DNA of 64,000 nt from contig NZ_JAFMPN010000001.1 of NCBI RefSeq assembly GCF_017351175.1, forward strand, positions 265,582-329,581, in the 5' to 3' direction. The DNA comes from Desulfovibrio sp. Huiquan2017. GTDB taxonomy: Bacteria; Desulfobacterota; Desulfovibrionia; Desulfovibrionales; Desulfovibrionaceae. The notes under the pieces are model-generated. The model ran no database searches, was not told where the DNA came from, and saw only the letters and a list, made by a program, of their open reading frames with translations. Position 1 is the stretch's first letter; each line of letters opens with the position of its first letter. Positions 36,312-42,037 of the stretch are shown piece after piece. The translations under genes were made by a program, and so were the position numbers.

Positions 36312-37022
36312 CTACAGAAAAAACATGGCCGCAGTGGCCAGGAGCACGAAACCGGTTCCGGCCCAGTCCCGAGCCGCCCAGGCGAAATCCGGCTCCCAAG
36401 CCTCGGCCCGGTCCAGGCCCCGGCAAGCCACGGCCAAGGTCTGGTTCCAGGTCTTCTGGCCGAGATTGCGAATGACCGCCTGGGGAATCATGCGCATGCG
36501 CCGGAAGAACCCGGCCTTGGGACAGCGCCGGGCAACCACCCCGCGCACCCCGGACAGGGTGGACAGGCAGACCGGCAGGAAATGAACCATCAGCGACAGG
36601 GACAGAGCGATACGCCAGGCCCGCTCCCGGCCCAAAAACGGCCGAAGCGCCCAGGCCACGGCCAGCCCGAGGGCGCGGGCCGAGGTGGACAGGGCCAGGC
36701 ACAGCCCGAGCATAAGCAGGGCCACCAGCCGAACGGCCAGTTGCGCCGCGTCCGAGGCCATGTACTCCACCGGCATTCCGGTGACGCCGTCGAGCACGGC
36801 CTTGACCGCCACCCAGAAAAAAACAAAGGAAAGCAGGCTGCGGACCATCTTTCCCCCGCCCGGTTGGCCCACGGCCAGAAAGCGACCCAACGCCAGCAGA
36901 AACACGGCGCACCCGGCGGCCGCCAGGACGTCCACCTTCCACAGCCCGGGGCCGATCAGCAGGGCCGCCGCCAGCTTGAGCCGAGGGTCCAGGGAACGGA
37001 CCCAACCCGCCACGTCGGGCAT
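36312..37022 (-). CDS. ECF transporter transmembrane component (EcfT/CbiQ/BioN type)
   Basis: 236-residue membrane protein, about six helices, with the coupling-helix signature (V-A-R-R-C-P, and a second A-x-x-x-R-G-like segment R-A-E-A-W-E). The ATG overlaps the ATPase stop (TGATG). An ECF system also needs a substrate-binding S component such as BioY, CbiM or NikM; none is in this window, so it may pair with one elsewhere, or work as a generic energizing module. The opening D-P-R-L-K-L fits the family. Confidence 0.82.
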   Translation of the reverse strand: MPDVAGWVRSLDPRLKLAAALLIGPGLWKVDVLAAAGCAVFLLALGRFLAVGQPGGGKMVRSLLSFVFFWVAVKAVLDGVTGMPVEYMASDAAQLAVRLVALLMLGLCLALSTSARALGLAVAWALRPFLGRERAWRIALSLSLMVHFLPVCLSTLSGVRGVVARRCPKAGFFRRMRMIPQAVIRNLGQKTWNQTLAVACRGLDRAEAWEPDFAWAARDWAGTGFVLLATAAMFFL

Positions 37023-37762
37023 CAGCGCGCCCCCTCGTCCCACGGCACGATGGTCCGGCAGGCGGTCCACGAGCCCGGCGCGCGCACCGAATGCTCGGCC
37101 ACGCGGTCCAATACGGTCTCGGCCGGGCCGTTCAGGGCCAGTGCCCCGTCGTCAAGCACGGCCAGTCCGTCCACCAGGTCGATGAAGCTGTCCAGGTCAT
37201 GGCTGGAAACCACCTGGGTCAACCCGGCCTCGCGGTTGGCCCGGATCAGGGCGCGCATCTCGCGCACACCGGGATAATCGAGCCCGCTGAACGGTTCGTC
37301 CAGCAGCAACACGCACGGCCGGTCCAACAAGGCCGCCGCCAGGCAAAGCTTGCGCTTGGTGCCCCAAGACAACGTGTGTACCGGACGGTCCCAATACTTC
37401 AACAAATTGAGCCGGTCTGCCATAGCCCGGGCTTCGGCAACGGCGGCCTCACCACGTTCGCGGCCCAGGAGCAGATCCTCCTCCACTGTGGCCCCGAGGA
37501 TTTGCAGGTCCGCGTCCTGCATGACCAGCCGACAAACCTGGCGGATGCCGCCTTCATGGCCCGGGCTGACCCGCCCGGCCACCTCCAGGCTCCCCTTGGT
37601 CGGGGCGTACAGCCCGGCCATGAGCGCAAGCAGCGTGGACTTGCCGCTGCCGTTGGCCCCGGCCAAGCCGAGCAGCCCCCCTTTCTCCACCTTCAGGGAA
37701 ACTCCGGACAGGACTTCGTCCCCGGAGGAATAATCGAACGTAACGGTATTGAGTTCTATCAT
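37022..37762 (-). CDS. ECF transporter ATP-binding protein (EcfA/CbiO/BioM type)
   Basis: 246 residues. Walker A G-A-N-G-S-G-K-S-T near 35-43, signature L-S-W-G-T-K-R-K near 127-134 (a variant of LSGGQ), Walker B L-L-L-D-E-P near 148-153 and the D-loop S-G-L-D are present. The L-S-W-G-T-K variant is typical of some cobalt/nickel or biotin ECF ATPases. GAGGA precedes the ATG at 37762. It is the first gene of a two-gene operon with the T component; the likely substrate is a vitamin or metal ion. Confidence 0.87.
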   Translation of the reverse strand: MIELNTVTFDYSSGDEVLSGVSLKVEKGGLLGLAGANGSGKSTLLALMAGLYAPTKGSLEVAGRVSPGHEGGIRQVCRLVMQDADLQILGATVEEDLLLGRERGEAAVAEARAMADRLNLLKYWDRPVHTLSWGTKRKLCLAAALLDRPCVLLLDEPFSGLDYPGVREMRALIRANREAGLTQVVSSHDLDSFIDLVDGLAVLDDGALALNGPAETVLDRVAEHSVRAPGSWTACRTIVPWDEGAR

Positions 37763-37871
37763 TGTCTTCCTCACGCCAGACACTCCATCATCCCACCCCC
37801 CGCTGTCAACGCCGCAGGGCAGGGAAAGACAGTCTTACGGCGGACTCCGCGAACAACGTCCGCAGCAACGA

Positions 37872-39394: not shown

Positions 39395-39832
39395 ATGAAA
39401 CAGTTCATTCCCCGGCTGGACGCCAAGGAAAAGAGTTTTCACGGAATGTTGGCCGTCGGCGGCCTGGCAGGCGTCATCGAAGGATCCATACGTTACGGCT
39501 TTACCGTACACACGGCGTTTCCGGGTATGCTGTTGACCCTGTTGGGGGCTTTCCTGGGAGGGTTCACCGGGCTGTTCATGAAGGACTGCATCCGGACTTG
39601 GCGGGGCCAAAAGCCCTACCGGGGGGTGCACAACGACGGCTGGATGATGGGCGGGTTCATGGGCACCTTTGTGGGCGCCCTGTTTCAGGTGACGGCCAGC
39701 CCGGACGGTGGCAACCTGGTCATCGGCGCCATTGTCGGGGCCTACCTCGGCGCGGTCTGCGGAGCGCTGCCGGACGAATTCGTCACTCCCATCCTGAGCA
39801 GGATGAACGAGGGGACGCCCGGCAGGCCCTGA
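39395..39832 (+). CDS. Glycine-rich membrane protein of unknown function
   Basis: 145 residues with roughly four hydrophobic, glycine-rich segments (for example L-A-V-G-G-L-A-G-V-I-E-G and V-I-G-A-I-V-G-A-Y-L-G-A) and cytosolic basic loops. GGGAGGACAC precedes the ATG. It is an inner-membrane protein; I do not recognise a family. It lies in a gap divergent from fadL and convergent with the DUF4198 gene. Confidence 0.6.
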   Translation: MKQFIPRLDAKEKSFHGMLAVGGLAGVIEGSIRYGFTVHTAFPGMLLTLLGAFLGGFTGLFMKDCIRTWRGQKPYRGVHNDGWMMGGFMGTFVGALFQVTASPDGGNLVIGAIVGAYLGAVCGALPDEFVTPILSRMNEGTPGRP

Positions 39833-39872: not shown

Positions 39873-40619
39873 CTATTTCATTTCCACCCAGATGACCGCA
39901 CCCATCTCGAGTTCGCGGCCTTCATAAGGCTTCTCAGCGGTATTCAGACCGGCAAAGCCCCACCATCCCTTCCAAGGGCAGGCGAAGGTGAACACGCCCT
40001 GCCCGTCGGCGAGCACTTCCTGAGTAACCATACGCTCGTTGGGGGCCTGGCGCTTGCCATCCTTGTTGTAGAATTCCACTTCCACCCGGGTATAGGGGGC
40101 GGGCTTGCCGCCAACCATGACCACGCCCTGGAAAACGTTGCCCGCATAGTTGCCGAAGGGGCGGGTCAGAGGCACGATTTCGGTATCCAGGCCAAGCGGC
40201 GTATTCCAGTTCTCGCCCTCGCCATAGGCGTCGACCACCACCTTGGTGATGTGGCGGATGTAGTTGTTTTCCGCGTCTTCCTTGTAGGGAACCGGATCAA
40301 AGACGAAGGTGTACAGTCCCGGGGCCTTGGCAGTGAAGGAGGTATTCCAGGCCAGATGACCCATGACCTTGGTTTCCTTCAGCGTGGGCAGCAGATCCAC
40401 GCGCTGGTCGTTGTCGATGGCCACGAAAAAGGCGGCGGGTTTCTCCAATTCCATGCCCTGACCCTCGAAGGGATGGGAAAAGGACAGGACCAGGTTCACG
40501 GTCCGCTTGGCCTGAGTCAATTCGTCGGTGTCGGGGATCAACATGCCGAAGTGAGCCTGGGCCGGACCGGCGAACAGAACGACGCACAGGACCGCCAGAG
40601 CGAAAATCAATTTCTTCAT
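39873..40619 (-). CDS. Periplasmic DUF4198 protein, nickel-uptake associated (NikK-like)
   Basis: 248 residues: signal peptide with cleavage predicted after A-Q-A at residue 22, leaving a mature chain that starts with histidine (H-F-G-M-L-I-P-D). The next 200 residues are the DUF4198 beta-rich fold, with W-G-F-A-G-L-N and E-M-G-A-V-I-W-V near the end. In sulfate reducers DUF4198 proteins are tied to nickel import beside NikMNQO systems. GAGGAG lies upstream of the ATG. A palindrome resembling a NikR operator lies 55 bases upstream. The family function is inferred, not established. Confidence 0.82.
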   Translation of the reverse strand: MKKLIFALAVLCVVLFAGPAQAHFGMLIPDTDELTQAKRTVNLVLSFSHPFEGQGMELEKPAAFFVAIDNDQRVDLLPTLKETKVMGHLAWNTSFTAKAPGLYTFVFDPVPYKEDAENNYIRHITKVVVDAYGEGENWNTPLGLDTEIVPLTRPFGNYAGNVFQGVVMVGGKPAPYTRVEVEFYNKDGKRQAPNERMVTQEVLADGQGVFTFACPWKGWWGFAGLNTAEKPYEGRELEMGAVIWVEMK

Positions 40620-40673
40620 CACACACTCCTCAAAGATTGTTGCAAACAAAAAATCCGTCTTCTTACTTAATTC

Positions 40674-40700
40674 ATGTTACTAGTATCAAACTAGTAACAC
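40674..40700. promoter_or_regulatory. NikR-like operator before the DUF4198 gene
   Basis: ATGTTAC (40674-40680), 13 bases, and GTAACAC (40694-40700). The inner part is a perfect dyad, TTACTAGT-ATCAA-ACTAGTAA. This is one base from GTGTTAC-N13-GTAACAC, the NikR motif I recall for Desulfovibrio. Further TTACTT elements flank it (40665-40670, 40710-40730). A promoter for the DUF4198 gene should overlap it. Confidence 0.6.
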
Positions 40701-40758
40701 AAGTCAAGTAAGATTACGGATTACTTACTCTTCATGGACAGTGATGGACCGAAACCGA

Positions 40759-41682
40759 TCACTCCGGATGACGCCGCCAGCGCCGGGCCAGGGTCACGCC
40801 CGAAATATTGTGCCACAGACTAAAAAGCGCACCAGGCAATGCCGTGGCCACGCCAAAATGCTTCACGGCCAGGGCCACGCCCAGGCCCGAGTTCTGCATG
40901 CCCACCTCGATGGCCAAAGTCCGCGCGTCCCGCTTGTTGCAGTGCACGAGGCGGGCCAGGCCGTACCCGGCCGCCAGCCCCAACGAATTGTGCAGGACCA
41001 CGGCCAGCAGGGCCAGTAACGGCAGCCCGAGCAGGGTCGCCTGGTTCAGGCCGATGATGCAGGCGATGAGCAGAGCTATGACGATGATGGACAGGGAAGG
41101 GAACCAACGCAGAAACGGTTCCAGCCATCGCCGGAAAAGACGGCGCAAAATCAGGCCGTCGATCAGCGGGAAGACCACGATCCAGAACACGGAGGTGACC
41201 ATGGACCAGAAATCGATTTCCACCTGACGTTCCAGAAGCAGATAGATGATGGCCGGAGTGAGAACCGGCGCAATGCAGGTGGAGGCCAGGGTTATGGTCA
41301 CGGAAAGCGGCACGTTGGCCTTGGACAGATAGGCGATGACGTTGGAGGCCGTGCCGCCAGGACAGGCCCCGACCACGATCATGCCGATGGTGATGTCCGG
41401 CGGCAGGCCGAGGACGCGGGAAATAATCACGGCCAGAACCGGCATGATGGCGTACTGCAAGACCATGCCGAGCCCCACCAGGGGCCACTTTCGCAATATC
41501 TCGACGAAATCCCCGAACTCCAGGGTCAGTCCCATGCCGAACATGATGACGCCCAGCCCCAGGGGGATGTGCGGCTTCACCCAGGTGAACGTCGGGGGGT
41601 AAACCAGGGCCACGGCGGACATGACCACGGCGATAAGAATAAAATTTCGCTCGAAAAGAAGGGGAACAGCGTCGATTTTCAT
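40759..41682 (-). CDS. Bile acid:sodium symporter family protein
   Basis: 307-residue inner-membrane carrier with about nine hydrophobic helices. The G-L-G-V-I-M-F-G-M-G-L-T-L block (residues 39-51), G-A-C-P-G-G-T-A-S-N (about 103-112) and the crossover helix E-V-G-M-Q-N-S-G-L-G (about 266-275) are BASS-family hallmarks. Substrates in this family range from bile acids to pantoate or sulfonates. The ATG at 41682 lacks a good Shine-Dalgarno; an upstream ATG at 41736 is possible. Confidence 0.88.
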   Translation of the reverse strand: MKIDAVPLLFERNFILIAVVMSAVALVYPPTFTWVKPHIPLGLGVIMFGMGLTLEFGDFVEILRKWPLVGLGMVLQYAIMPVLAVIISRVLGLPPDITIGMIVVGACPGGTASNVIAYLSKANVPLSVTITLASTCIAPVLTPAIIYLLLERQVEIDFWSMVTSVFWIVVFPLIDGLILRRLFRRWLEPFLRWFPSLSIIVIALLIACIIGLNQATLLGLPLLALLAVVLHNSLGLAAGYGLARLVHCNKRDARTLAIEVGMQNSGLGVALAVKHFGVATALPGALFSLWHNISGVTLARRWRRHPE

Positions 41683-41868
41683 GCCCGTGGGGTGGCTTAA
41701 ATACGGATTCTTGTCAACGCTGGAGCAAAAAAACATGTCTCAAAGCATAGTTCCCGCGACAATCCGGCCCAAATGTCCCGCCATGGGCAAGGCCGCCCCC
41801 GGCAAGGCAGAATGGACGGCTCGCCGCCTCGCTGCGGAGCCGGGTTGAGCGGCATATGGGAAGAAGTG

Positions 41869-41897: not shown

Positions 41898-41915
41898 AAC
41901 CATTCCCGTACAGAG

Positions 41916-42000
41916 GGAAGCCGGACGGCGGTCGCGTTGAGAATTCCGTCAGGTCCGAAAGGAAGCAGCGGTATCAATTGCTCCCGGGTGTCCGGTTTCC
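41916..42000 (+). ncRNA. ffs: Bacterial small signal recognition particle RNA (4.5S-like)
   Basis: The core GTCAGGTCCGAAAGGAAGCA (41948-41967) is the hallmark SRP domain IV loop that binds Ffh and FtsY; E. coli has GTCAGGTCCGGAAGGAAGCA. The flanks GGAAGCCGGAC (41916-41926) and GTCCGGTTTCC (41990-42000) pair as the closing helix, with inner GTTGA/TCAAT pairing. Transcript ends are approximate; the 5' end may be about 12 bases earlier. A strong terminator follows at once. Confidence 0.93.
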
Positions 42001-42004
42001 ACTC

Positions 42005-42037
42005 AAAGGCGCGTTCAGTACTGAACGCGCCTTTTTT
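42005..42037 (+). terminator. SRP RNA terminator
   Basis: A perfect 30-base palindrome, 42005-42034, with arms AAAGGCGCGTTCAGT and complement, followed by T's. It also separates the SRP gene from the convergent kinase gene. Confidence 0.93.

Follow-up and report, generated by a model that had tools for sequence, protein, structure and literature searches.

What is the function of the inverted repeat upstream of a lone gene for a DUF4198 protein, here called nikK? The sequence-only reading of the window (the whole stretch of DNA analysed, 64,000 nucleotides) had proposed that the repeat is a NikR-like operator. The features at issue are listed below with their window coordinates.

40674..40700, no strand assigned: predicted NikR-type operator, ATGTTACTAGTATCAAACTAGTAACAC (GTGTTACTAGTTTGATACTAGTAACAT on the nikK strand), based on motif match and shuffles, ortholog conservation, a genus-wide scan and a matrix.
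40702..40707, minus strand: putative -35 element TTGACT, its function suggested by conservation and spacing.
40680..40688, minus strand: probable extended -10 element, TG-N-TACTAG, deduced from alignment columns 21-29, with a spacer of 16 and overlapping the operator.
39873..40619, minus strand: nikK, encoding a 248-aa secreted DUF4198 protein, based on a Pfam match, an alignment of 21, a structure model and fold matches.

The plus strand of the dyad agrees with GTGTTAC-N13-GTAACAC at 13 of the 14 half-site positions; written as ATGTTAC-N13-GTAACAC, it is one mismatch from the delta-proteobacterial NikR motif given in PMC545781, and it falls within the pattern GTGTTAC-N13/14-GTAACAC at 0-2 mismatches. 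Around a central ATCAA, the arms TGTTACTAGT and ACTAGTAACA pair at 10 of 10 positions, bearing out the perfect inner dyad described earlier. No other match with up to one mismatch was found in the 64 kb, and none of 100 dinucleotide-preserving shuffles contained any; the dyad noted earlier is real. With up to three mismatches the window held two matches, an unremarkable count, as at least two were found in 13 of 100 shuffles. At up to two mismatches the whole genome yielded seven forward and seven reverse matches, no excess over the reversed-pattern control (14 and 12). Since the genome counts do not exceed the control, the motif count proves nothing alone, and the case for an operator rests on position and conservation. 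A matrix built from 26 sites of relatives, located upstream of the FecB-like gene described below and excluding our own site, ranked 40674 at the top of the window with 23.8 bits (runner-up, 13.6), a score reached in none of 200 mononucleotide shuffles of the window.

The dyad lies 58 bases past the end of an SBF-type transporter gene and 55-81 bases upstream of the nikK ATG (40619), on the upstream region of the DUF4198 gene as had been noted. Its distance from the SBF gene, together with the 10-bp perfect stem in our genome, would also suit an RNA hairpin or a terminator of that gene. The dyad is, however, not G+C-rich and has no T-run, the terminator scan was blank there, and a conserved -35-like hexamer directly adjoins it. 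Moreover, at the four outer positions of the arms just 3, 11, 16 and 9 of the 35 orthologs show complementary bases, whereas the left half-site persists. We rejected the hairpin on the blank scan and the poorly kept outer arm pairing, and find it hardly credible. We also discarded the idea that the CTAG repeats are TrpR-like, as the paired CTAG is peculiar to our genome among the 35 aligned orthologs and the spacing of the repeats differs from that of a TrpR box. No riboswitch reached the gathering threshold in the window between 35000 and 45000, in the nikML and nikQO regions or in the C2 importer (see below).

An operator of this kind calls for its repressor, and we found one nikR in the genome, at C10:77932-78162 (PF08753, E 1.6e-33). 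Its product scored 215 bits against NCBIfam NF003381 (cut-off, 105) and exceeded the cut-offs of three other NCBIfam NikR models, while remaining below that of TIGR02793 (128 versus 175 bits). The gene was found in 35 of the 36 genomes of the genus; the exception, G030, is 82% complete. Rodionov et al. (2004, PMC545781) predicted that NikR controls nik operons and an [FeFe] hydrogenase.

The predicted NikK protein matched Pfam PF10670 with E 2.4e-54 and 185.1 bits, compared to a gathering cut-off of 34. A signal peptide, read from the sequence, covers approximately residues 1-22 and ends in ...PAQA, suggesting that mature NikK would start at His23. Residues A22-H23, His49 and His123 were invariant in all 21 aligned homologs, so that an N-terminal His is accompanied by a second conserved His. 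The DUF4198 protein IsDUF4198 binds Ni2+ with a Kd of 18 nM via His1 and His18 (PMC12537917), and His49 would be the equivalent of His18 in its Ni-bound structure, PDB 9GCB. The AlphaFold2 model of NikK (mean pLDDT 90.7) matched Zcp and 9GCB in Foldseek. NikK thus resembles IsDUF4198 in Pfam family, fold and N-terminal His after the signal peptide; the Foldseek identity is just 17% (TM 0.53/0.61), and nickel binding by NikK is a prediction. A PDB sequence search with the single NikK protein gave no matches, and a PDB profile search gave two Zcp sequences plus three weak matches that are unrelated. The proposal that the DUF4198 protein binds nickel gains support, by analogy, from the nickel-binding family member (PMC12537917) and from the invariant N-terminal His of the mature protein.

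Upstream of nikK, on the same strand, lies the SBF gene (40759-41688), and a convergent gene (39395-39832) follows downstream; nikK was correctly described as lone in the sense that it is not part of an operon. Beside nikK in 30 loci of the genus, our own included, we found the SBF gene in 29, a gene for a 145-aa protein in 29 and a FadL-type gene in 27. There are three DUF4198 genes in the genome. The other two are located at C16:30032-32495, beside FeoB-like and Fur-like genes (both named from sequence). We searched 42 genomes from outside the genus. A DUF4198 match was present in 32 of them, and in 18 of these (16 from other families of the order and two from the same family) it was no more than 1 kb from a CbiM/NikM gene. 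By coordinates, the two genes were never close in the 36 genomes of the genus, including our own. Judged by family and context, the DUF4198 gene is the counterpart of nikK of the literature (PMC545781; PMC2667541).

We analysed the conservation of the dyad in the 36 genomes, of which G014 is without a close nikK ortholog; the upstream regions of the other 35 (our own and 34 more) were aligned. The hexamer CTTGAC (40703-40708) is identical in all 35, and we take it to be the -35 element of a sigma-70-type promoter whose extended -10 element would be TG-N-TATTAG, the column-majority form in the genus; the majority block following the GTGTTAC half-site in the alignment is TTTGATATTAGTA. With the promoter placed in this way, the GTGTTAC half-site would fall inside the -35/-10 spacer and GTA at the -10 end, putting the dyad between the conserved -35-like hexamer and the NikK start, on the putative promoter of a nickel gene. 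A consensus promoter scan detected no promoter in the nikK upstream region.

Of the 35 orthologs, 28 have an exact left half-site, GTGTTAC; allowing one mismatch raises this number to 32, and allowing two raises it to all 35. For the right half-site, only 12 orthologs fall inside the two-mismatch limit and the remaining 23 are at least three bases off, most often as GTATGCA, suggesting that the nikK operator is lopsided across most of the genus. The full dyad at nikK is therefore a minority state, to which the studied genome belongs, and genomes with the lopsided operator often have the complete dyad upstream of the FecB-like gene. The weak right half-site, and the likeness of CTTGAC and TG-N-TAT to promoter elements kept in all or many orthologs, would allow that the promoter alone is conserved and the resemblance to NikR sites at nikK is coincidental. 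The spacer of sigma-70 promoters is as a rule little constrained, yet columns G9, T10, A14 and C15, with GTGTTAC in the spacer, are identical in 35 of 35 orthologs, and the dyad turns up again ahead of the FecB-like gene, where the surroundings differ. We consider a coincidence very improbable and retain the NikR operator as the explanation.

A stricter pattern combining promoter and half-site, derived from the nikK alignment, was found in 27 of the 36 genomes at 28 places with no control matches; 27 of these places are nikK promoters and the remaining one, in G020:C32, is near a contig start. The motif was not in excess ahead of nikK homologs from named genomes, most of which lie outside the genus: at up to three mismatches it occurred in three of 79 upstream regions (3.8%), compared to 2.5% in shuffles. 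These were 79 of 80 loci, L180 being omitted because its match already begins at the end of the locus, and L133-L136 probably belong to the genus. Upstream of the nikK homolog of L148, a Halodesulfovibrio MAG, we observed GTGACAC-N13-GTGTAAC, with the orientation published for nikK of Desulfovibrio vulgaris (PMC545781).

A second site in our genome (C2:42526-42552) lies ahead of genes encoding a Peripla_BP_2 protein, a FecCD permease, an ATPase and an FmdE protein (C2:38976-42552, L010), which adjoin Ech-type hydrogenase genes (Ech named from sequence). A close ortholog of the FecB-like binding protein was found in 33 of the 36 genomes. The dyad was present in 27 of 30 binding-protein loci, with 13-bp spacing and up to four mismatches over 13 positions, 66-84 bases upstream; it was not found at that position in L268-L270, three more distant loci. 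Seven loci of relatives all keep the binding protein, FecCD, ATPase and FmdE genes, and one close relative among them (L305) has Ech adjoining, L306 stopping at a contig end. From its sequence features, the C2 operon is a candidate second NikR-controlled importer, possibly for nickel.

We then scanned the 36 genomes, regardless of genes, with the exact pattern GTGTTAC-N13-GTARCA, the shape of which was chosen after seeing the FecB-side sites. The scan gave 31 rows, corresponding to 30 places, from 20 genomes, compared to 12 rows for the reversed-pattern control. By coordinates, nine rows are nikK promoters, 17 are promoters of FecB-like binding proteins and the other five represent four places, a number within the chance level of the control. 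In G009 (L271), two rows form one palindromic place between an HD gene, which immediately precedes it, and nikQ-nikO; the nikO aligned in full, and only residues 122-281 of the nikQ aligned in one frame. In G019 (L297) the dyad precedes an [FeFe] hydrogenase gene (PF02906, E 6.1e-92), and a site in G005 is near a transporter permease gene. The fourth place, C1:245042 in our genome, is near an aldehyde dehydrogenase gene. That two of the four places precede target kinds predicted for NikR in 2004 (PMC545781) speaks for NikR, small as the number is. Two further dyads in our genome were observed with the FecB-side matrix, one at C1:245041-245067 (23.7 bits; also an exact-scan match), near an aldehyde dehydrogenase gene, and one at C12:66905-66931 (22.8 bits), where a probable methyltransferase gene starts.

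The association of the dyad with a FecBCD/BtuC-type importer, whose relatives carry iron complexes or B12 and whose operon includes an FmdE protein, could instead indicate that nikK and the FecB-like importer are controlled by another metal-responsive repressor, for cobalt or of the Fur family. The nikML promoter (C7:89229-89256) would fit this, as it bears a different, genus-conserved 28-bp dyad, GTGTATAC-N12-GTTAACAC. A matrix from 23 such nikML dyads ranked 40674 first in the window, yet the best site in 9 of 20 shuffles scored as high, and we rejected this matrix as independent proof of the operator. Against another repressor, the motif is the one published for delta-proteobacterial NikR (PMC545781), it stands ahead of nikQO in G009 and of an [FeFe] hydrogenase in G019, nikR is present in all but one of the 36 genomes, and no cobalamin riboswitch reached the gathering threshold in four C2-type importer loci (L010, L301-L303). 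We regard such a repressor as improbable, and the proposed NikR-like operator is supported by the presence of nikR, ortholog conservation, promoter overlap and the motif at other genes, including some nickel and hydrogen genes.

If NikK serves nickel uptake, a transporter is expected, and its components had been described as absent from the window, correctly for nikMLQO. A CbiM/NikM gene is located at C7:88584-89162 with an adjoining nikL-like gene, and a Q-O pair at C9:88599-90172; we gave the C7 and C9 genes nik names for their resemblance, in order, to those that follow nikK in operons of other genera. In the nickel ECF transporter NikKMLQO, NikK and NikL replace NikN (Zhang et al. 2009, PMC2667541). 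All five gene types, named by family and similarity, are present here, but at three places (C1, C7 and C9) in contrast to one operon. The earlier suggestion of a free-standing nickel carrier held in that the gene stands alone; the nikML- and nikQO-type genes elsewhere in the genome suggest that NikK is rather a single component of a transporter whose genes are dispersed.

Within the window, 36312-37783 encodes an ECF-like ATPase and a T-like membrane protein after a FadL-type gene. The T-like protein had no Pfam or NCBIfam match, and no S component was recognised beside the pair, which is visible in the longer genus loci only and is present in L133 and L136. We evaluated this CbiO/T-like pair as nikQO and rejected it: at eight nikQO-bearing operon loci where both ATPases were comparable, the C9 ATPase was closer (41-54% versus 33-37%).

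The explanation that we strongly favor is a NikR operator on a sigma-70-type nikK promoter, with nickel-dependent repression and nickel delivery by NikK; from sequence comparison, the dyad very probably lets NikR switch nikK off when nickel is plentiful. At low nickel, NikR would be off the DNA and nikK transcribed. NikK would be exported and its signal peptide removed, exposing the N-terminal His, which together with the second conserved His would bind periplasmic Ni2+. NikK could then deliver Ni2+ to an inner-membrane importer, NikML with NikQO and possibly also the co-regulated FecBCD-type importer. Once cytoplasmic nickel is sufficient, Ni-NikR would occupy both half-sites, the first inside the -35/-10 spacer and the second covering the -10 end, and block RNA polymerase.

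In this genus the classical NikR operator may have concentrated on nikK and the FecB-like gene, and nikML has another dyad, raising the tentative and rather unlikely possibility that the FecBCD-type importer receives nickel from NikK in place of NikMLQO, or in addition to it. Against this route, G020, G031 and G032 have nikK without a close binding-protein ortholog. In our limited literature search, far from exhaustive, no report described such a route for sulfate reducers. NiuBDE is kin to FecB/FecCD/FecE. In Helicobacter pylori, NiuBDE provides ABC-type nickel import (PMC5140060, PMC7840056), the class proposed here for the C2 operon, which differs in its extra FmdE protein and for which nickel is only a candidate substrate. 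The importer with the common operator is a modest new lead to a second possible nickel importer.

The arrangement as a whole is a well-supported new example of a known one, as Rodionov et al. predicted a NikR site at the stand-alone nikK of D. vulgaris in 2004 (PMC545781). In common with our genome, D. vulgaris has nikK apart from nikMQO, GTGTTAC-type half-sites with 13-bp spacing and a nikR. According to the sites given in that report, the D. vulgaris nikK half-sites have the opposite orientation, GTgACAC-N13-GTGTaAC (<-->), in contrast to our dyad (-><-), which shares its orientation with the site at D. vulgaris nikMQO; our genome also differs in that nikML and nikQO are themselves split. 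Our literature search found no paper joining NikR and Pseudodesulfovibrio, most likely the genus studied here. What started as a guess has led to a small predicted nickel regulon in the genus. As a separate observation, the plus strand of the window carries a bacterial small SRP RNA at 41913-42006 (Rfam RF00169, 58.4 bits).
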